From positions 1 through 24,796 of IMG/VR virus record IMGVR_UViG_3300006749_000117: DNA of 24,796 nucleotides, one strand, 5' to 3'. Made by a program: the position numbers and the translations under genes. Positions 5,972 to 24,657 of the stretch are shown here, in pieces; position 1 is the first letter of the stretch, and every line of letters starts with the position of its first letter. The DNA is from a virus. The notes under the pieces are model-generated. The model did no database searches. It worked only from the letters and a program-made list of their open reading frames with translations, and had not been told where the DNA came from.

Positions 5972-6377
5972 ATCAAAGTTTGAGCAGAAGGTTGCCTCGG
6001 CCCTAACGGATGCTGGGGCAACCTTTACCTACGAAGAGGATGTCATTCGTTTTGAACAGCCAGCGAAGGCTAGGCGATACACACCCGACTTTGTTTTACC
6101 TAACGGCATCATCCTTGAGGTTAAAGGCTTTCTTAGCCGAGACGACAGGATGAAACATAAGTGGATTAAGGAGCAACATCCTGATTTAGACATCCGCTTT
6201 GTATTCATGAATCCTAACACACGCATATCGAAACTATCTAAAACACGGTATCGGGAATGGGCTGACAAGCTCAAGTATCCTTGGTGCTGTGGACCACAAA
6301 TACCACAACAATGGCTGACTTACAATCCCTCCAAACACACCAACCCTGCCCCGACTGCGGAAGCAGAGACGCATTAA
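5961..6377 (+). CDS. Endonuclease I (Holliday junction resolvase), T7 gp3-like
   Basis: This 138-residue protein closely follows the T7 gp3 pattern: 'YTPDFVLPNGIILEVKG' and 'KEQHPDLDIRFVF'. The catalytic set E8, D43, E53 and K55 keeps the same spacing as E20, D55, E65 and K67 of T7 endonuclease I (35, 10 and 2 residues). It resolves branched DNA and degrades host DNA. The start is a TTG at 5961, inside the end of the SSB gene. The next in-frame ATG is well past the catalytic residues, so a rare start codon is required; GAGGAGG lies about 15 bases upstream. The 3' end overlaps the primase/helicase gene by 67 bases. Confidence 0.93.
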   Translation: MIFRSKFEQKVASALTDAGATFTYEEDVIRFEQPAKARRYTPDFVLPNGIILEVKGFLSRDDRMKHKWIKEQHPDLDIRFVFMNPNTRISKLSKTRYREWADKLKYPWCCGPQIPQQWLTYNPSKHTNPAPTAEAETH

Positions 6378-7876
6378 CAATCAATACAGACTCTAGCACA
6401 AAGTGTTATTCCTGTGACACCTTCACGCCGAGTGATGGCAGTGCCGCCGAGCACACACCATCTTTTAAAAACAGCAGGTTTGTAAGCGGTGAATACCAAG
6501 ACCTAGTAAAGCGCAGAATCTCCGAGAAGATTTGTAAGCTTTATAATTATCAAGTAGGCACACACGACAATAAGAATTGCCACATCGCATCTTATAAAGA
6601 TAAGAGTGGGGTAGTCGTCGGTCAGAAGATACGCTTCTCTGACAAGACTTTTAAAATTATTGGAGATGTAAAAACTCCGTATGGCTGGCAACGCTTTTCC
6701 GACGGCCGCTATCTTGTAATTACTGAGGGAGAGATTGATGCTTTGTCAGTCGCTGAAGTATTCGATGGTAAGTATCCTGTTGTCTCTATTCCTAATGGTG
6801 CCGCCTCTGCTCCTAACTTTTTCAAGAAGCATTTAGATTACTTTGAAGGCTTTGATAATGTTGTCATCATGTTTGATATGGACGAGCAGGGTATCCTTGC
6901 CGCCAAAACCTGTGCATCTATTCTTTCTGTAGGAAAGGCTAAGATAGCTAGGCTTACCGCAAAGGACCCTAACGAGCTTTTGGTAAGCGGTAAAGCAAAG
7001 GATTTGGTTCAGTCTTTCTGGAACGCAGAAGCCTATCGCCCTGATGGTATTGTGCTTGGCACCGATATGTGGGCAAAGATTAACAACAAGGAAAAGGTTG
7101 AGAAGTGCGACTATCCCTACGATAGTTTAAATCGCATCACACGCGGATTACGTGTTGGTGAGATAGTAACCTTCTGCGCTGGTTCGGGGGTAGGCAAGTC
7201 CAGTCTGTGCAGGGAGATCGCTTACTCACTATTAAAACAAGAGCAGAAGCTGGGGTATATAGCGCTTGAAGAATCCATACAGCGCACCGCTATGGGCCTG
7301 ATGGGCATACACGCTAACAAGCCTTTGCATTTGATGGACAACCTGCCGCCAGAAAAGGTAATGAAAGAAGCTTATGATGCTACAGTCGGCTCAGGAAATT
7401 ACGTTACCTACGACCATTGGGGTTCGATTGAATCTGACAATCTCATCAATCGTATTCGATACATGAACAAAGCTTTAGGTTGCAAGTGGATATTCCTTGA
7501 CCATGTTTCGATTGTAGTATCTGGTCAGGACGGGGATGAGCGGAAGATGATTGATATATTAATGACTAAGCTAAGGTCTCTTGTTGAGGAGACTCAGGTA
7601 GGATTGCTGTTAGTATCGCATTTAAAACGCCCAGAGGGTAGAGGCTTTGAAGAGGGAAGAGAGATTACCCTTGGCCATTTACGTGGCTCAGCTGGTTTAG
7701 GACAACTATCCGATATGGTTATTGGCATTGAACGTAACCAGCAGGATGAGGACACCAAGAACCAGAGCACCGTTCGTATTCTAAAGAATCGTTTTAGCGG
7801 CGAAACAGGTATCGCTTGCTATTTAGAGTTTGATAATCAAACATCTCGTTTAACCGAATTAAGTATAGAACTATAA
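6311..7876 (+). CDS. DNA primase/helicase, T7 gp4-like
   Basis: This 521-residue bifunctional replication protein starts at the ATG at 6311; the frame extends to 6281, but the residues before this Met add nothing conserved. A zinc finger with C13, C16, C32 and C35 leads a primase domain with the Toprim motif 'VITEGEIDALS' near 137 and 'VVIMFDMDEQG' near 190. The DnaB-like helicase half has Walker A 'GSGVGKSS' near 291, Walker B 'KWIFLDHV' near 393, and 'LLLVSHLKRP' and 'LRGSAGLGQLSDMVIGIERN' further on. It unwinds DNA and makes primers ahead of the phage polymerase. The first 67 bases overlap endonuclease I. Confidence 0.96.
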   Translation: MADLQSLQTHQPCPDCGSRDALTINTDSSTKCYSCDTFTPSDGSAAEHTPSFKNSRFVSGEYQDLVKRRISEKICKLYNYQVGTHDNKNCHIASYKDKSGVVVGQKIRFSDKTFKIIGDVKTPYGWQRFSDGRYLVITEGEIDALSVAEVFDGKYPVVSIPNGAASAPNFFKKHLDYFEGFDNVVIMFDMDEQGILAAKTCASILSVGKAKIARLTAKDPNELLVSGKAKDLVQSFWNAEAYRPDGIVLGTDMWAKINNKEKVEKCDYPYDSLNRITRGLRVGEIVTFCAGSGVGKSSLCREIAYSLLKQEQKLGYIALEESIQRTAMGLMGIHANKPLHLMDNLPPEKVMKEAYDATVGSGNYVTYDHWGSIESDNLINRIRYMNKALGCKWIFLDHVSIVVSGQDGDERKMIDILMTKLRSLVEETQVGLLLVSHLKRPEGRGFEEGREITLGHLRGSAGLGQLSDMVIGIERNQQDEDTKNQSTVRILKNRFSGETGIACYLEFDNQTSRLTELSIEL

Positions 7877-7884
7877 TAAATAAT

Positions 7885-8082
7885 ATGCCTCATAAATCTT
7901 CAGCAATGCTATTCAAACCAGACACCGAGCAAGTCCTTGTAAGAGGGCTTAACGCGATGACCAAGGCGTGCGACGCCTTATCAAATCAGAATGAAACACT
8001 AAATAAAGACATAGAGAGCATGAAGAAAAAGATACAACGTCTTCAAGAACGTGTTTTGTTAAATGAAGGGAGCAAAGAGTGA
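7885..8082 (+). CDS. Small coiled-coil hypothetical protein
   Basis: This 65-residue protein lies between primase/helicase and polymerase. Residues 20-60 form a heptad-like helix rich in Leu, Asn, Glu and Lys ('ALSNQNETLNKDIESMKKKI'), suggesting a short coiled coil. There is no membrane segment. The start lies in an A/T-only leader (TAATAAATAATATG) without a Shine-Dalgarno sequence, and the stop overlaps the next gene by GTGA. No family is recognised; the position suggests a replication accessory role, which is inference only. Confidence 0.65.
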   Translation: MPHKSSAMLFKPDTEQVLVRGLNAMTKACDALSNQNETLNKDIESMKKKIQRLQERVLLNEGSKE

Positions 8083-12322: not shown

Positions 12323-14662
12323 ATGCTCAACCAGCGCCTTACTCGAAACCTGTTTACAGGCCAGACCGAACCCTTAACCGCTCCTCTTTCTTTTGATTTT
12401 ACAGAAGATTTAGGTGACAAAAGAAAACTTTCTCTTTTCAGTCAGAATGGTGGGGCCGCCGCCGCTTATTCGTTGAGGGCCTTGGGTAGTTATAACGAAA
12501 AGGTAGTGCGTGTGCGGCGCGGAAGTGATAACGAGGAACGCGATTTCTCATCTGTTGATGCTCTTTCGGGTGGATTGACTTCGTTTGTAAACGCTCAGGT
12601 AGTAGCACCTCTAGATATACAAGAGCTAACCGCAACGGGTCGTGATGGTGACTTCCTTATTGCCAAGGCGGCTTACTCACTTCGTAGCCTAGGGACACGT
12701 CAGGCTACCGTGGCGGCTACTGGAGATACCGTAGCCCGTACTGATGGTCAATATGTAGCACAGGTTCGTCGTAGCTCTGACGATGCTCTGAAGTCCTTTA
12801 CGGCAACTGAGGTTACTGATGGAACTTTGCTAGCTTTTACTAATGCAGATTACGCTAAATACACATCTGACTTTAGTGCTGGAACTAATAGTTGGGGAGA
12901 TTCACTTGATGATCTTACTGCGGCTGGTAATATTGATGGTATTGGAGGATTGGATAATAATTTACGATTAACTATAGGGTCAGCCACTAGTCAGCACAGA
13001 GCGTTTAGAAGTAACATTTTTCCAGTAAGTCAAAAAATTAATTTTTCAATTAGAGTATTTATTCCATCTACTAACTCAGTCGTTGATTCATTTCGTATTT
13101 CTGACGCTTCAGGCACTCACATTGTTGCAAGCACGACTCCTGCACAAGACCAATGGGTTACAGTAACCGCAAGTAATGTAACTCCAACTAATAATTCTGG
13201 TCAGTTAAGACTATTTCTTCAAGATGGAGGAGTTGACAACTTTGCTGGCAATGGCTCCGATGTAATATATGTAAGAGAGGTAGTAGTTACTCAGGTTACA
13301 TCAGACGGACTCGTTAGAACTTGGTATGACCAAAGTGTAACCAATCAATCAGGAGATACAGCAACAGGTAATCACGCAGTTCAAGCAACTGCTGCAAGTC
13401 AGCCTAAGATTGTTAATGCTGGAGCTTTGGTCAAGGATGGCGAGATTGCTGGACTTGACTTTGATGGTGATGACTTTTTAGTTGCCCCTTCAGCATCATT
13501 GCTTACGAGTCCTTTTTCACTGTTCTCTGCGAGCGTTAGAGATACAACTGGATATACTGTTTCAATTTCAAAAAGCACCGCAGCCAACAGATATTTTGGT
13601 GTCCAAGAGGCGACAAGCACATCTATTGCTGCCCCAAGAAATTCCACTTCAGGTGTTTCGGTATCAGCTAGCGCTTCTGGAAGTGACCGCCTTACCTTTG
13701 CTGTAACCACTGGTGAAACTTCTACCAGTGTAGGTGCTAAGGGTGGGACTCTTGTCAATACAACTGGCGACTACGGAAACGATTTTCGTGCTACCGATGG
13801 CATGAACCAAATTGCTATTGGTGTTTTGAGGACTGTAAACCCAAGTGGTTATTTTAACGGACGTATCCGTGAGATTATTTTCTACAACTCCGACCAGTCA
13901 GCCAACCGCACAGCCATTGAAGCTAACATTGGTGAAGCCTACAGCATTGACCTACCATCTGGTGTAGACGCAGGGTTTGACCAAGTGGACGGCTTTGTAG
14001 AGACTTGGTATGACCAGTCAGGCAACGGAAGGCATTCGACTAATACTACCGCAACTCAACAACCTCTTATTGTTGAAGCAGGCGTATTTCAAAATGGGTT
14101 GAAGTTTACTCATACTGATACTACCAACGGGAAAAGGTTATTTGTGCCTCGCACCCAAGCAGAATTAGGGGGTGCGTTTGCTTTTGTTTGGGTAGGTAAA
14201 GTAACCGAATCAGATACTTCTTTTAATAATCTTCTTGGAGGACTTAGGGGTGTTCAAAGTTATGCTACTGGAACTACTGGAATAGCTATTAAATCCAGCG
14301 ATGGAACTGTTTCTTTTATAAATGAATCAGCAACTAACGCAAGAACAAGCTCTAACAGTTCAACTGCTACAACATTGAACGAGGACTTCGTTGCATTTGC
14401 TACTTATGAAGAGGCTGAATCAGGCCCTGAGACTGTGCTTTCGATAAATGGAAACCGTCAGTTCTTTAGTTTTGGTAGTTCTTATAACTTATCAAGCACA
14501 AAAGATATTGGTATTATGAATGCTACGGGCAGTTCAGGTGGTTACAGAACGCAAGAAAGCCCAACGGGAATATGCCGAGAAGTATTAGTCTACGATACTC
14601 ATCAAGGCGACCATCGTTTAACCATTGAAAATAACATTAACAATCAATACGACCTATTCTAA
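12323..14662 (+). CDS. Mosaic adhesin/tail fibre protein with LamG-like domains
   Basis: This 779-residue protein carries repeated modules seen in phage tail proteins and in arabinofuranosidase-type catalytic domains: 'AAYSLRALGSY' with 'VRVRRGSDNEERDF' near 47-75, a second 'AAYSLRSLGT' near 115, 'VRTWYDQS' near 333 and 'ETWYDQSGNGRHST' near 560. LamG-like beta-sandwich regions follow each WYDQS block, the first ending 'FNGRIREIIFYNSDQSANRT' near 520 and the second 'CREVLVYDTHQGDHRLTIEN' at the C terminus. Residues 172-330 look like an inserted carbohydrate-binding-type domain. It probably binds host surface glycans. No catalytic residues for glycan cleavage can be confirmed. It precedes the portal gene, not the usual distal position of T7 gp17. 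Confidence 0.75.
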   Translation: MLNQRLTRNLFTGQTEPLTAPLSFDFTEDLGDKRKLSLFSQNGGAAAAYSLRALGSYNEKVVRVRRGSDNEERDFSSVDALSGGLTSFVNAQVVAPLDIQELTATGRDGDFLIAKAAYSLRSLGTRQATVAATGDTVARTDGQYVAQVRRSSDDALKSFTATEVTDGTLLAFTNADYAKYTSDFSAGTNSWGDSLDDLTAAGNIDGIGGLDNNLRLTIGSATSQHRAFRSNIFPVSQKINFSIRVFIPSTNSVVDSFRISDASGTHIVASTTPAQDQWVTVTASNVTPTNNSGQLRLFLQDGGVDNFAGNGSDVIYVREVVVTQVTSDGLVRTWYDQSVTNQSGDTATGNHAVQATAASQPKIVNAGALVKDGEIAGLDFDGDDFLVAPSASLLTSPFSLFSASVRDTTGYTVSISKSTAANRYFGVQEATSTSIAAPRNSTSGVSVSASASGSDRLTFAVTTGETSTSVGAKGGTLVNTTGDYGNDFRATDGMNQIAIGVLRTVNPSGYFNGRIREIIFYNSDQSANRTAIEANIGEAYSIDLPSGVDAGFDQVDGFVETWYDQSGNGRHSTNTTATQQPLIVEAGVFQNGLKFTHTDTTNGKRLFVPRTQAELGGAFAFVWVGKVTESDTSFNNLLGGLRGVQSYATGTTGIAIKSSDGTVSFINESATNARTSSNSSTATTLNEDFVAFATYEEAESGPETVLSINGNRQFFSFGSSYNLSSTKDIGIMNATGSSGGYRTQESPTGICREVLVYDTHQGDHRLTIENNINNQYDLF

Positions 14663-20030: not shown

Positions 20031-20624
20031 ATGCCAACTCTTACTACACAACTTGAAGCCGTTAACTCCATGCTGGGTCATATTGGTGAATCGCCCGTTG
20101 ACTCTATAGCAACACCCTCTGCTCTTCCTATCAGTGCCTCGACTGCGCTAACTATTTTGGACGAGGTAAGCCGTGAAGTTCAATCGGATGGTTGGCATTT
20201 TAATACAGAGTATGATGTTACTCTGAGTCCTAACGCCTCAAACAACATCGTCTTAGCCTCCGACATTATCGAAGCTGACGTGGATGACCACTCTTCCGAT
20301 ATTGTATGTCGCGGTCTAACCTTATTTAACCGCAAAGACAACACCTCTACTTTTACTAGTGACATAAAAGTCACACTAACTCGTCTGCTTGCTTGGGATA
20401 GCCTTCCCGAACCAGCCCGACGTTATATTACTTTACGTGCTGCACGTATACTACAAGGACGTATTGTAGGTTCTCGTGAATTGGAAGCACTCATTGCTCG
20501 TGACGAATACACAGCGAAAGCTCGTCTCGAAGAGTTTGACTCTAAGAACGCTGATCGAACAATATTTGACAATTTTGATACTGGAGCCAGAATTGGCATA
20601 AATCGAAACTACTCAATAACATAA
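20031..20624 (+). CDS. Tail tubular protein A (adaptor), T7 gp11-like
   Basis: This 197-residue protein matches T7 gp11 (196) in length and position. 'QLEAVNSMLGHIGESPVDSI' at the start, 'REVQSDGWHFNTEYDVTL' near 50 and 'PEPARRYITLRAARILQGRI' near 130 are family hallmarks. It forms the ring joining the portal to the nozzle. It begins after the capsid terminator, in the A/T leader ATAAAATATTATG, and the nozzle gene follows one base after its stop. Confidence 0.93.
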   Translation: MPTLTTQLEAVNSMLGHIGESPVDSIATPSALPISASTALTILDEVSREVQSDGWHFNTEYDVTLSPNASNNIVLASDIIEADVDDHSSDIVCRGLTLFNRKDNTSTFTSDIKVTLTRLLAWDSLPEPARRYITLRAARILQGRIVGSRELEALIARDEYTAKARLEEFDSKNADRTIFDNFDTGARIGINRNYSIT

Positions 20625-20625
20625 G

Positions 20626-23433
20626 ATGCCTTTAATAAATAACTCGCTCCCTAATCTTGTACAGGGAGTTTCGCAGCAGCCTGACGTCCTTCGATACGAC
20701 GGACAGTGCGAGATACAGGAAAACGCAGTCAGTAGTATCCTTAAAGGGTTACAGAAAAGACCCCCTGTTGAGTTCGTTAGTAAACTATTTGATGGGGATA
20801 TTGACGACGAAGACGAAGATATCCTTAAAGAAGGATTCATTAGCTTTATTGAGCGCACATCCGATGAGAAGTATGTAGTTATACTTGATGGTATTAAGCT
20901 ACGTGTGTTCAGGATAGAGCTTGCTGAAGGTTCTACAACGCCCACAGAGGCGTCCATTAGCGTTAATGGTGTCAACTACACAACTGGCTATCCGTTAACA
21001 GCAGACGATTATATCTACTCTCCGACATCGCATCAAAATATAAAAGCTCTTACAATTGGCGATACTACCTTAATGGTAAACACAGCCGCCGCTGTTGCGA
21101 AGGCCACAGAGACAGCTTATGATTTAGCGGACGAAGCTCTTGTGTTCATCAAGCAAGGTGACTATGAAAAAGAATATACTATAAAAGTAGGCCCTACTGA
21201 GTATATGCGTGTTTCAGATAGCGACGACCACGCCGTTAACGCTTCTGCTACACAAATTAGAGATAAATTTTTTGCTGCCCCTCGCAATGGACAGACAACT
21301 GCCAATATTAATGAAACGGGCGCCGCTTTCGGCGCATTTGCTTCTAAAGTAGGCGAGGCTGGTATACTTTTGGATTTATCTGCTAGTGCTTTTAATTCTA
21401 CAGACGTTAGTGTCTCTGATGGTCTTTCTAACACAGGACTAGGGCTGGTTTATAAAGAGGTAGATTCTATCACTGATCTTCCTAAATTCTGCGTCAATGG
21501 CTTTACTGTTAAAGTCAGAGGGGATGCGGAACTAACCCAAGATGATTACTATGTAAAGTTTGAAACGAATAACAACCAAGCCCAAGGTAACGGTTCGTGG
21601 ATTGAAACTTTGGGACCGTCTGAGTTCTACAAGGTTGGTGATGGCTCACCTGTACAGCTCGTTAATACTGCTGAGAATGTCTTTGTTCTTCGCGGGATGC
21701 CCCTCGGAGAGCGCAAGGCAGGGGACAACGACACTAATCCTTTTTCTTCGTTCGTCAGTAATAACATTAACAACTTATTCCTATTCAAGAATCGACTCGG
21801 CCTTCTTTCGAGAGACGCTGTTATATTCTCTGAAGCTGGCTTTGGCGGCAGCGCAAACGGAACTGCTTATTATGTAAACAGTAGTAACGACGGTGCTCAC
21901 GCTGACGGACATTACTATCCTTTATATCTGGACTCCTCTGTTATTTACGGAGCGTTTACTGAGTATGAGTTTGATGCATTCCCGAACACTAAGTTCTATA
22001 TGCCAAACAACAATACTAACACTGCTAAAGCACTCGCACCTACAGACGTAACAACCTTAGCCTTTACTAGCGAAGAAAGTATTACCGTTAATACACCTAT
22101 ACAGGCATTTAATTTCTTCCGAACTACCGTTACAGACTTATTGGACGCTGATCCAATCGACGTGACAGTATCCAATCGCGAGATAACAAACTTGAGAGCA
22201 GCACAGCCGTTCCAAGAAAACCTTACTATCTTCTCCGACACCGCTCAGTTTGTGTTGAAAGGTGGTGACTTGTTAACTCCTCGTACGGTATCTATCAGTC
22301 AGGTTACTAACTTTGATTACACAAAGACTGTAGAGCCGCTACCTCTTGGTTCTTATCTGTATTTCCCATTCGACCGTGGAAGCCACACAGGACTAAGAGA
22401 GTATACAATCAACTCTACTACGGATGTATATGACTCCGATGAGATTACTCAAGCAGTTCCTCAGTATATCCCTAATGACTTACTGTCTTTAACTGGTTCC
22501 AACTCCGAAGGATTAATAGCTGCTATCTCTGGTAAGGCAGAAACTACCGACGGACAGATTATTGATACAAGTTATCTTGTTTCTAATATCCCACAAACTA
22601 ATCATAAATTTATTGGTGGCACTGAGCTGATATATCACACAACGGCTTATGATCCTATTAATTCGATGATTGAAACCGTGAATACCACTCATACTCGTTT
22701 TAATGGTGTAACGGTGTCCTCTGCAGGTAGTCACCGCTTTCCTAACTATGTTTCAAGCACGTCAAATATCAAGGGGTTTTCAACTATGGATACTTTTCAT
22801 GACGCTCTAGCTAATCGTAATTATGCCCAAATGACACAACAGGAAGCTAATGACTTTGGGTGGCTTGGAGGTTCTCTTCCGTTTGGTTATAAAACACACA
22901 CGGGGGCTATTTCTTTGGTAGATATAACCGCCAACCCAGTTTCAGGCTATGATGAGTTTAGAACGGCAGTGGGGGATACTTACACCATAGAAACCTTTAT
23001 ATCTTATGAAGTGCTATCGACCCTTACTAATAGCCCAAAGGCATTAATAAGTACCCACAACAATCAACACGACGTAGTATTTGAAGCGGGTATTTATACC
23101 TATGGTAGTAACAGCGGCCAAAATCAAGATGGTTACGCATATGTCCGAGCTGGTAATACTTATTATGTCTCACAAAGTTCTCACGCGGCGGCTGGTAAGC
23201 AAATGTTACACTTGATGTTAGTCGGTCGTAAAAATGTGGCGCGGTTTTATATAAATAACAATCTAGCTGTGTATGCAGCTTCTTCAATACCCGAAATTAA
23301 CGATGCCAGCATTGCGTCTGTTATGCTTGGTAGAAATCAGCTCGCAGACGGACGCATACATTACTCCAGAGTATATAGCAAAGAAATGCCTTCTATTCAG
23401 CGCACAATTAACTTTAACTCTCGCTACAACTAA
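20626..23433 (+). CDS. Tail tubular protein B (nozzle) N-terminal part with LamG-like C-terminal domain
   Basis: Residues 1 to about 636 are the nozzle protein of the T7 gp12 family: 'NLVQGVSQQPDVLRYDGQCE', 'GLQKRPPVEF', 'FKNRLGLLSRDAVIFSEAG', 'QFVLKGGDLLTPRTVSISQV' and 'YIPNDLLSLTGSNSEGLIAA'. At 'AISGK' (about nt 22533) the expected nozzle sequence stops. About 300 residues of different character follow, with LamG/lectin-like features: 'TYTIETFISYEVL', 'HLMLVGRKNVARFYINNNLA' and 'DGRIHYSRVYSKEMPSIQRT'. The missing nozzle C-terminal part is the next gene, joined by TAATG. The chimera would place a carbohydrate-binding-type domain on the tail tube. Confidence 0.88.
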   Translation: MPLINNSLPNLVQGVSQQPDVLRYDGQCEIQENAVSSILKGLQKRPPVEFVSKLFDGDIDDEDEDILKEGFISFIERTSDEKYVVILDGIKLRVFRIELAEGSTTPTEASISVNGVNYTTGYPLTADDYIYSPTSHQNIKALTIGDTTLMVNTAAAVAKATETAYDLADEALVFIKQGDYEKEYTIKVGPTEYMRVSDSDDHAVNASATQIRDKFFAAPRNGQTTANINETGAAFGAFASKVGEAGILLDLSASAFNSTDVSVSDGLSNTGLGLVYKEVDSITDLPKFCVNGFTVKVRGDAELTQDDYYVKFETNNNQAQGNGSWIETLGPSEFYKVGDGSPVQLVNTAENVFVLRGMPLGERKAGDNDTNPFSSFVSNNINNLFLFKNRLGLLSRDAVIFSEAGFGGSANGTAYYVNSSNDGAHADGHYYPLYLDSSVIYGAFTEYEFDAFPNTKFYMPNNNTNTAKALAPTDVTTLAFTSEESITVNTPIQAFNFFRTTVTDLLDADPIDVTVSNREITNLRAAQPFQENLTIFSDTAQFVLKGGDLLTPRTVSISQVTNFDYTKTVEPLPLGSYLYFPFDRGSHTGLREYTINSTTDVYDSDEITQAVPQYIPNDLLSLTGSNSEGLIAAISGKAETTDGQIIDTSYLVSNIPQTNHKFIGGTELIYHTTAYDPINSMIETVNTTHTRFNGVTVSSAGSHRFPNYVSSTSNIKGFSTMDTFHDALANRNYAQMTQQEANDFGWLGGSLPFGYKTHTGAISLVDITANPVSGYDEFRTAVGDTYTIETFISYEVLSTLTNSPKALISTHNNQHDVVFEAGIYTYGSNSGQNQDGYAYVRAGNTYYVSQSSHAAAGKQMLHLMLVGRKNVARFYINNNLAVYAASSIPEINDASIASVMLGRNQLADGRIHYSRVYSKEMPSIQRTINFNSRYN

Positions 23434-24191
23434 TGACTTCTATTTTCATATACAAATACTTTTTTAGCGGAAACAAAAAGCTTTTAGGAGCGTGGATGAA
23501 GTTTACCGTCAAAGGTGTTGTGCGCTCCGTTAATTTCATTGACTCCATTCTATATGTTATCTCAGTGTATAATGGACAGGTAATGCTGGAGCAAATTAAC
23601 CTTGAAGAAGGGCAACTAGACGCAGAGGGCTATATTACTCACCTCGACAAGCGTATCAAAACCCTTGTTTCTGGAGGTAGCAATACCATTTCCCTTCCAT
23701 TCCTTCCTAAGACAGACGAAACAATCAAGGTATATGATACTAAAGGAAACGTAGTAGCATCTTCATTCAGTCAATCTACGGTTACTCTTACCGCTACTCC
23801 TTCTGAGGACACCGTTTACTATGTGGGTCTTCCTTACACCATGACCTATCAATTCTCTGAGCAGCTATTCAAGGCGCGCTCTGGAGAATCTAAGACCCCT
23901 TCATCGGCCTCTAAGCTTATGACACGTAACGGTGCTGTGTTCTATAACGATACTAGCTCGTTCACTATCAAAATCACTCCAGAAGGTAGAGCAACCTCAC
24001 AAGCGGCGCTGGCTGAGGAATATGATTCAAACAACACTATCACTTTAAAATCGGGAGACTTCCGTTTTCCTGTGTTCACAAACCCTGAAGGAGCTACTAT
24101 TGTAGTTGAAAGTGACTCAGCATTCCCTGTTAACCTTAGTTCGGCAGAGTTTGAGTCCTTTGTGCATAGTCGCTCCAACAGATATGGATAA
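23433..24191 (+). CDS. Separated C-terminal part of tail tubular protein B (nozzle)
   Basis: This 252-residue protein begins 'MTSIFIYKYFFSGNKKLLGA' then 'WMKFTVKG'. That is the internal gp12-family segment (type 'LYVYKYxWxGxEKxQSAWxxWxF') which normally follows the 'LIAAIS' region of the upstream gene. 'DSILYVISVYNGQVMLEQIN' and the C-terminal beta-rich part also fit the nozzle. It has no start-proximal signal and no Shine-Dalgarno sequence; the ATG shares a base with the upstream stop and lies in the -1 frame relative to it. It should assemble with the N-terminal chain. A programmed -1 shift could also fuse the two. It overlaps the next gene by 8 bases. Confidence 0.82.
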   Translation: MTSIFIYKYFFSGNKKLLGAWMKFTVKGVVRSVNFIDSILYVISVYNGQVMLEQINLEEGQLDAEGYITHLDKRIKTLVSGGSNTISLPFLPKTDETIKVYDTKGNVVASSFSQSTVTLTATPSEDTVYYVGLPYTMTYQFSEQLFKARSGESKTPSSASKLMTRNGAVFYNDTSSFTIKITPEGRATSQAALAEEYDSNNTITLKSGDFRFPVFTNPEGATIVVESDSAFPVNLSSAEFESFVHSRSNRYG

Positions 24192-24657
24192 CAAAGTTCT
24201 AGCAACATACGGTAAATGTAGAGCGGTGGTTGCAAATACCCACCACGCGGAAGCGCTGGCGCCTTTACTCCGTAAGTATGACAGAATGGAAGTGGGCGCG
24301 TATGGGTTTGAAGATCCTAAAGATGTATTATTGTCGGCACTGAGAACCGACGATATAACTATCGCTGCGCTTGATGGCGATGATATGCCCTTCGCTATGC
24401 TAGGCGTGGGCACCAATGAAGGTATTCCTTATATATGGCTCTTAGGCAGCGAAGGTGTAAAGGAACACTCCTATATCTTTGCCAAAGCATCTAAACAACT
24501 TTTACCTAGTATCATGAATAACTATCCCGTGGTCATGAACTATGTTCTTAAAGACTATACAGCCTCTGTTAAATGGCTGAAGTGGTTAGGAGCAAAGTTT
24601 ATCCGTGAGGTTGAAATCAATGGATACCGTTTCTATGAATTTATAATTATTAAATAA
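24184..24657 (+). CDS. Internal virion protein A, T7 gp13-like
   Basis: This 157-residue protein starts at the ATG at 24184; the longer frame from 24106 lies inside the nozzle part. It resembles the gp13/DUF2833 family, a GNAT-like fold: 'HAEALAPLLRKYDRMEVGAY', 'AMLGVGTNEGIPYIWLLGSE' and 'YVLKDYTASVKWLKWLGAKF'. In T7, gp13 is needed for assembly of the internal core proteins. It lies between the nozzle and the gp14-like gene, as in T7. Confidence 0.85.
   Translation: MDNKVLATYGKCRAVVANTHHAEALAPLLRKYDRMEVGAYGFEDPKDVLLSALRTDDITIAALDGDDMPFAMLGVGTNEGIPYIWLLGSEGVKEHSYIFAKASKQLLPSIMNNYPVVMNYVLKDYTASVKWLKWLGAKFIREVEINGYRFYEFIIIK

Follow-up and report, generated by a model that had tools for sequence, protein, structure and literature searches.

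The window analysed here, a 24,796-base record from an uncultivated virus with a T7-like plan (G000; IMG/VR record IMGVR_UViG_3300006749_000117), carries a T7-type nozzle (gp12, PF25675) that is distributed over two genes, as was confirmed by profile and alignment searches of the sequence. Between the two nozzle halves lies a stretch that adds a predicted lectin-like domain to the end of the first chain. We consider it rather probable that the two gene products would assemble into one nozzle protomer made of two chains, and that the added domain would be displayed on the tail and bind the host surface. The phage nozzle locks the DNA in and opens upon receptor contact, and as a DNA lock and a receptor-triggered gate it would therefore be expected to tolerate little. 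If our reading is true, it describes a second route to host-range evolution in T7-type phages, in which the receptor contact sits directly on the gate, and it offers a natural split site for studying the opening of this gate.

Two nozzle genes with exact homology edges

The coordinates of the nozzle genes, their parts and their neighbours are given in Table 1. The Phage_nozzle profile PF25675 (794 positions) matched gene 1 with profile positions 1-372 and 358-520 and gene 2 with positions 519-793, with scores of 448 bits for chain 1 and 125 bits for chain 2 against a curated cut-off of 27. When examined by tblastn, phmmer and alignments to T7 gp12, the homology of gene 1 ended at residue 635/636, which corresponds to about residue 516 of T7 gp12. 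The homology of gene 2 restarted at its residue 3 (T7 gp12 residue 522) and continued along its full length. About 300 residues (22534-23430), in frame with gene 1, separate these two edges, and gene 1 is closed by a TAA (23431-23433) that overlaps the start of gene 2, the frame of which is -1 relative to gene 1. The initial annotation had claimed that the gp12-like sequence stops at about residue 636 and resumes at the start of a second gene entered through a TAATG overlap in the -1 frame; phmmer, tblastn and PF25675 revealed the edges to be exact, and the open frames were as claimed. Its view that one chain has become two, with an extra domain at the new C terminus, is likewise supported, and a role of that domain in receptor binding would be probable.

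Table 1. Features of the window (positions in the 24,796-base record).
Feature	Position	Strand	Evidence
Adaptor / tail tubular protein A (T7 gp11 type), upstream neighbour	20031..20624	+	PF17212 E=1e-43, phrog_446
First nozzle gene, 935 residues	20626..23433	+	PF25675 1-520; phmmer to T7 gp12; Foldseek of model
Nozzle-homologous part of gene 1, 636 residues	20626..22533	+	Alignments to T7 gp12 1-516, domain description of PMC6702177
Propeller insertion, about 73 residues (gene 1 residues 406-478)	21841-22059		
Proximal insert part, linker and variable region (residues 637-780)	22534..22965	+	Identity profile vs L169, L001
Concanavalin/LamG-like beta-sandwich, predicted (residues 781-935)	22966..23430	+	AlphaFold2, Foldseek, sub-threshold PF13385 in L169 counterpart
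TAATG stop-start overlap of genes 1 and 2	23431..23435	+	Sequence
Second nozzle gene, 252 residues	23433..24191	+	PF25675 519-793; phmmer to solved nozzles 8i4m, 6r21
gp13-like internal virion protein frame, downstream	24106..24657	+	phrog_308 E=1.5e-31
Putative virion protein, 779 residues, upstream of portal gene	12323-14662		phrog_10356

The window resembles the T7 gp12 nozzle (PF25675; PDB 6r21) in the near-full-length profile match, obtained here in two pieces, in the gp11-gp12-gp13 gene order and in the fold of the first chain. However, T7 gp12 and those isolated relatives that were checked consist of one chain each, without an insert at T7 residues 517-521. Described PF25675 members are single continuous chains, a property that is not a Pfam criterion of the family and that the window nozzle lacks. 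The nearest annotated single-chain relative, MedDCM-OCT-S45-C18 (Ayaqvirus, AP013544), is 44% identical in the N part and 32% in the C part and has the gene order of the window, but its nozzle is one continuous gene of about 921 residues without the insert, with about 6 nt between the edges. Uninterrupted homologues, the search for which had been proposed as a means of marking the insertion edges, were plentiful: most single-chain relatives have only 0-33 nt between the edges. Thus, the 300-residue segment is not a normal part of nozzle homologues, since ordinary relatives do without it, and the second gene is a genuine nozzle part that aligns over its whole length.

The T7 order of adaptor (gp11), nozzle and gp13-like protein is kept in the window, and the true start of the gp13-like frame is probably an ATG near 24186. 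Upstream of the portal gene there is a large putative virion protein (Table 1) with no Pfam match, and AP013544 likewise has two large unassigned proteins at the position upstream of its portal. The phages of this group are uncultivated and probably marine; a search of GTDB genome contigs detected no relative and thus provided no clue to the host.

The same split in independent contigs

Five other contigs share this split and its class of insert. L002 (contig 3300010148) has 100% amino-acid identity to the window, and L001 (contig 3300048067) is 94% identical in the N part, 89% in the insert and 98% in the C part. The most distant one, L005 (contig 3300048121), has corresponding identities of 62, 37 and 67%, and L169 (contig 3300017752) and L171 (contig 3300046751) share the arrangement of the window. 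The initial annotation had named an assembly artefact as an observation that would overturn its reading. That the split represents such an artefact, a sequencing error or a decayed gene is hardly credible, although false splits do occur, as in Klebsiella phage VLC6, which has an apparent 2-base deletion where its relatives are intact. Six contigs carry the same insert class, and one of them is 100% identical to the window, which for practical purposes rules out an assembly artefact. Moreover, purifying selection acts on both parts of the nozzle (dN/dS 0.09-0.59), and no second intact nozzle was detected in the split contigs searched.

VLC6 was considered as an isolate with a split nozzle and rejected, its sequence falling 2 bases short of those of the listed relatives. 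Its nozzle (L245:2891-5249; MT197176 26365-28723), for which the annotation has a short tail tubular protein B and a separate 'tail spike', is probably one gene with a 2-base deletion or a sequencing error, given that the listed relatives have one intact gene.

The added domain at the end of chain 1

The proximal part of the insert begins with about 44 codons that are conserved in comparison to L169 and L001, and the AlphaFold2 confidence for this proximal part is low. The last ~155 residues of chain 1 are predicted to be concanavalin/LamG-like in fold. In the AlphaFold2 model of the full chain 1, computed for this chain alone from 60 sequences (overall pLDDT 67), they form about ten strands and a C-terminal helix, with pLDDT mostly 70-89; a model of the insert alone, from four sequences, had a pLDDT of 32 and was set aside. 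Beyond the T7-type nozzles, Foldseek matched the chain 1 model to sialidases with a propeller and a lectin-like domain, to the carbohydrate-binding domain 4 of arabinanase AbnA and to lectin-like binding domains of other proteins. These lectin-type matches had a TMt of up to 0.48 and an rmsd of 5-6.

Searches of Pfam and PHROG called no family in the window insert. Neither the insert profile nor the L042 insert found a match among PDB sequences, and phage records contained none for the window insert or the L038 insert. Laminin_G_3 (PF13385) matched the counterpart of the insert in a single record, L169, with 19.5 bits (E=2.9e-6) against a cut-off of 27.6, and at the loose E limit 10 of the 14 control genomes matched this profile too. 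Because the match was confined to L169 and stayed below the cut-off, we describe the domain as LamG-like in fold and do not assign it to PF13385. As modelled, the domain would be similar to the concanavalin A-like lectin/LamG family in strand order and fold, but it differs in its sub-cut-off score and in being borne on a nozzle. Accordingly, of the proposal that a LamG/lectin-like segment continues in frame from the first gene, the frame was verified and the LamG label was a guess for which the beta-sandwich model and the sub-threshold PF13385 match in a relative now speak. The added domain is most likely a tail-mounted module that would serve in binding.

Split sites and insert sorts among related nozzles

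Split nozzles occur at 11 of 140 distinct related nozzle loci, a count from which loci of the same contig were removed. L171 did not enter it because its sequence, which holds the insert and the opening codons of gene 2, is too short. The statement that known nozzles are single chains holds for T7 and the isolated relatives checked, yet these 11 related loci are split. The C half matched 602 phage records, and there was no split nozzle among the best 60 of them. The break is at the same site as in the window (site 1) in nine of the 11 loci, with at least four sorts of insert. The window type, LamG-like, occurs in L001, L002, L169 and L005, a type of about 354 residues in L038 and L039, a 392-residue type in L086, a 179-residue domain in L042 (L042:7459-7995) and an insert of 106 residues in L006. 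Only the L042 insert gave a strong Pfam or PHROG match (phrog_24956, E=1e-33; family function unknown), and the other Pfam matches on inserts were weak and dismissed as chance. Homologues of the L042 insert form parts of tail proteins in crAss-like phages and of very large proteins in Xanthomonas and Stenotrophomonas phages; judged by these homologues, the insert is a mobile phage domain.

The second break site, between the last blade strands and the fibre dock, was found in L109 and L113 only. The extra domains of about 390-490 residues again end the first chain there (around 6306-8000 and 6586-8000, respectively), and the extra region of L109 seems to consist of two similar beta-rich repeats. 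In L215 (1856-5101) the nozzle is a single chain with an in-frame insertion of about 230 residues exactly at site 1, and on the basis of its sequence it is a possible intermediate between the single-chain and the split nozzle.

In the tree built from the nozzle columns that the loci share, the single-chain L016, L057 and L085 nest beside L038/L039, and the site-2 pair is placed elsewhere (support 100/99). A single clade of all site-1 splits, as expected of a single origin, was rejected by the AU test (p=4e-5), and a quicker, larger tree required five changes of state. Since the site-1 splits do not form one clade, the trees point to more than one origin of the fission, or to its gain and later loss by recombination.

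Evolution of the insert

The amino-acid identity between the window and L169 is 82-97% in the N part and 95% in the C part, but it is 63% in one half of the insert and 49% in the other; the DNA identity drops within the insert from about 22666 and is back up by about 23346. Non-synonymous changes were in excess in the insert, both in the window-L169 pair (204:102 vs 95:117, Fisher p=9e-7) and in the window-L001 pair (39:9 vs 47:27, p=0.04 uncorrected). The synonymous divergence of the insert was above that of its flanks between the window and L169 (102/203 vs 117/508, p=4e-12) and below it between L005 and L171 (13/226 vs 74/454, p=8e-5), which implies exchange of the insert as a cassette. These comparisons characterize the insert as the fastest-changing part of the nozzle, with a recombination history of its own. 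Fast change and exchange fit a host-contact role and are no proof of it, as relaxed constraint may contribute to the pace of change.

Expression of the two genes

The TAATG overlap is kept in the window, L001, L169, L005, L171, L038 and L086, and in L042, L109, L006 and L113 the split genes are separated by a gap of 2-20 nt. The simplest reading of the overlap is that the two chains would be translationally coupled. The initial annotation had offered a spliced or a frameshifted gene as an alternative, and both versions lost ground. That the 900 bases are an intron or another removable element, spliced out to yield one ordinary nozzle, is extremely unlikely. The precise break and the single-chain relatives with almost nothing at the site would suit such an element, but the Rfam search of the window detected no intron family, and the segment is an open frame that prolongs gene 1 by 300 codons, encodes a folded domain according to the model and evolves fast as coding sequence. 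In addition, different inserts occupy one site without shared intron-like ends, gene 2 has its own ATG in every split locus and there is a second break site. We also regard as very improbable, if slightly less so, a programmed frameshift or stop-start slippage producing a single fused chain. The one-base overlap of the frames in TAATG, with gene 2 in the -1 frame, would permit it; however, no slippery heptamer precedes the stop of gene 1, and the nozzles with genes 2-20 nt apart are split likewise.

Predicted position of the break and proposed working of the two-chain nozzle

In the seven-bladed propeller of T7 gp12, the strand that closes blade 1 comes from the start of the propeller sequence, a bond joins C504 of blade 7 to C554 of blade 1, and three strands of the platform barrel stem from the first 45 residues (PMC6702177). 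By homology, the break (T7 residues 517-521), located between C504 and C554, would fall in the link from blade 7 to blade 1, and from this position it follows that chains 1 and 2 should share blade 1 and the platform. Gene 1 would encode the N-terminal platform strands, the first strand of blade 1, the tip domain and blades 2-7, and gene 2 three strands of blade 1, the fibre dock and most of the platform. The best Foldseek matches of the chain 1 model were all T7-type nozzles (E down to 1e-35), with a poor whole-chain superposition (rmsd 16-19) that is due to the presence of inserts and the absence of half of the protein. The propeller part of the model is mostly confident, and residues 1-61 form low-confidence spurious helices; such misfolding in the isolated chain 1 would be expected if chain 2 is needed. 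In the SU10 nozzle blade 1 lies far out from the tail axis and bears the short-fibre dock loop (PMC9509320), so that blade 1 could plausibly serve for mounting parts on the outside. Placed by homology, the break plausibly lies at the outer edge of the propeller.

Following the T7 structure, the two chains would be knitted together twice, in blade 1 and in the platform, chain 1 giving the closing strand of the former and three barrel strands of the latter and chain 2 the remainder of both. Such a double interlock would make one covalent link dispensable and keep the protomer, six two-chain protomers would build the usual gated hexamer, and the TAATG overlap may hold the synthesis of the chains near 1:1. 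The free chain end at the outer edge of blade 1 would allow a large domain to be displayed without a need to return to the propeller. During adsorption, the lectin-like domain and the unrelated inserts of the relatives would bind host-surface glycans or other receptors. In an Acinetobacter phage one residue change in the nozzle alters the host range (PMC10904470). The binding module would probably supplement the ordinary tail fibres, because the split-nozzle contig L042 keeps a T7-type fibre gene (PF03906); the idea that the insert replaces missing tail fibres found no support for the same reason. The window-clade contigs end in or at the gp16-like gene, before the fibre region.

We think it unlikely, though it deserves weight, that the two-chain nozzle is real and its added domains do not bind receptors, acting as structural decorations, docks for other fibres or stabilisers of the capsid or tail. 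The inserts vary in fold and size, down to the 106 residues of L006, blade 1 of SU10 carries a fibre dock and no receptor-binding domain, and the L042 phage has retained its fibre, all of which would agree with a non-binding role. On the other hand, a lectin-like fold, rapid non-synonymous change and exchange as a cassette are features typically seen in parts that contact the host, and they favour the receptor-binding module.

The receptor-binding module may be an instance of a broader pattern, to which we give somewhat less than an even chance. Blade 1 would be a general plug-in site, where in uncultivated phages unrelated binding cassettes have been inserted repeatedly, both there and at the link between blade 1 and the fibre dock, and swapped between strains, and the nozzle gene, an essential one, has been cut in two repeatedly, turning the conduit into a receptor-binding organelle of two-chain protomers. 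The exchangeable lectin-like domain on chain 1 suggests a plug-in site of the tail for host-recognition parts, and annotation of these phages is likely to present the nozzle as truncated or as two genes that have nothing to do with each other.

A description of split nozzles or of lectin domains on nozzles was not found in the open literature, which was the scope of our search. Two known systems come close. SU10 (Kuravirus) gp17 likewise mounts host-contact parts, the short tail fibres, on the outer-edge blade 1 (PMC9509320), but it is a single chain, its dock is a loop for separate fibres, and its sequence similarity to T7 gp12 is undetectable. The muzzle gp44 of crAss001 is a propeller protein of the tail end with domains inserted between and into its blades (PMC10172136), but these inserts are at blades 2-3, have other folds and leave the chain unsplit.

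In addition, the propeller region of the window nozzle contains a second insertion of about 73 residues (Table 1), which is missing in 55 of 60 aligned nozzles and occurs only in the window clade (the window, L001, L169, L005 and L171).
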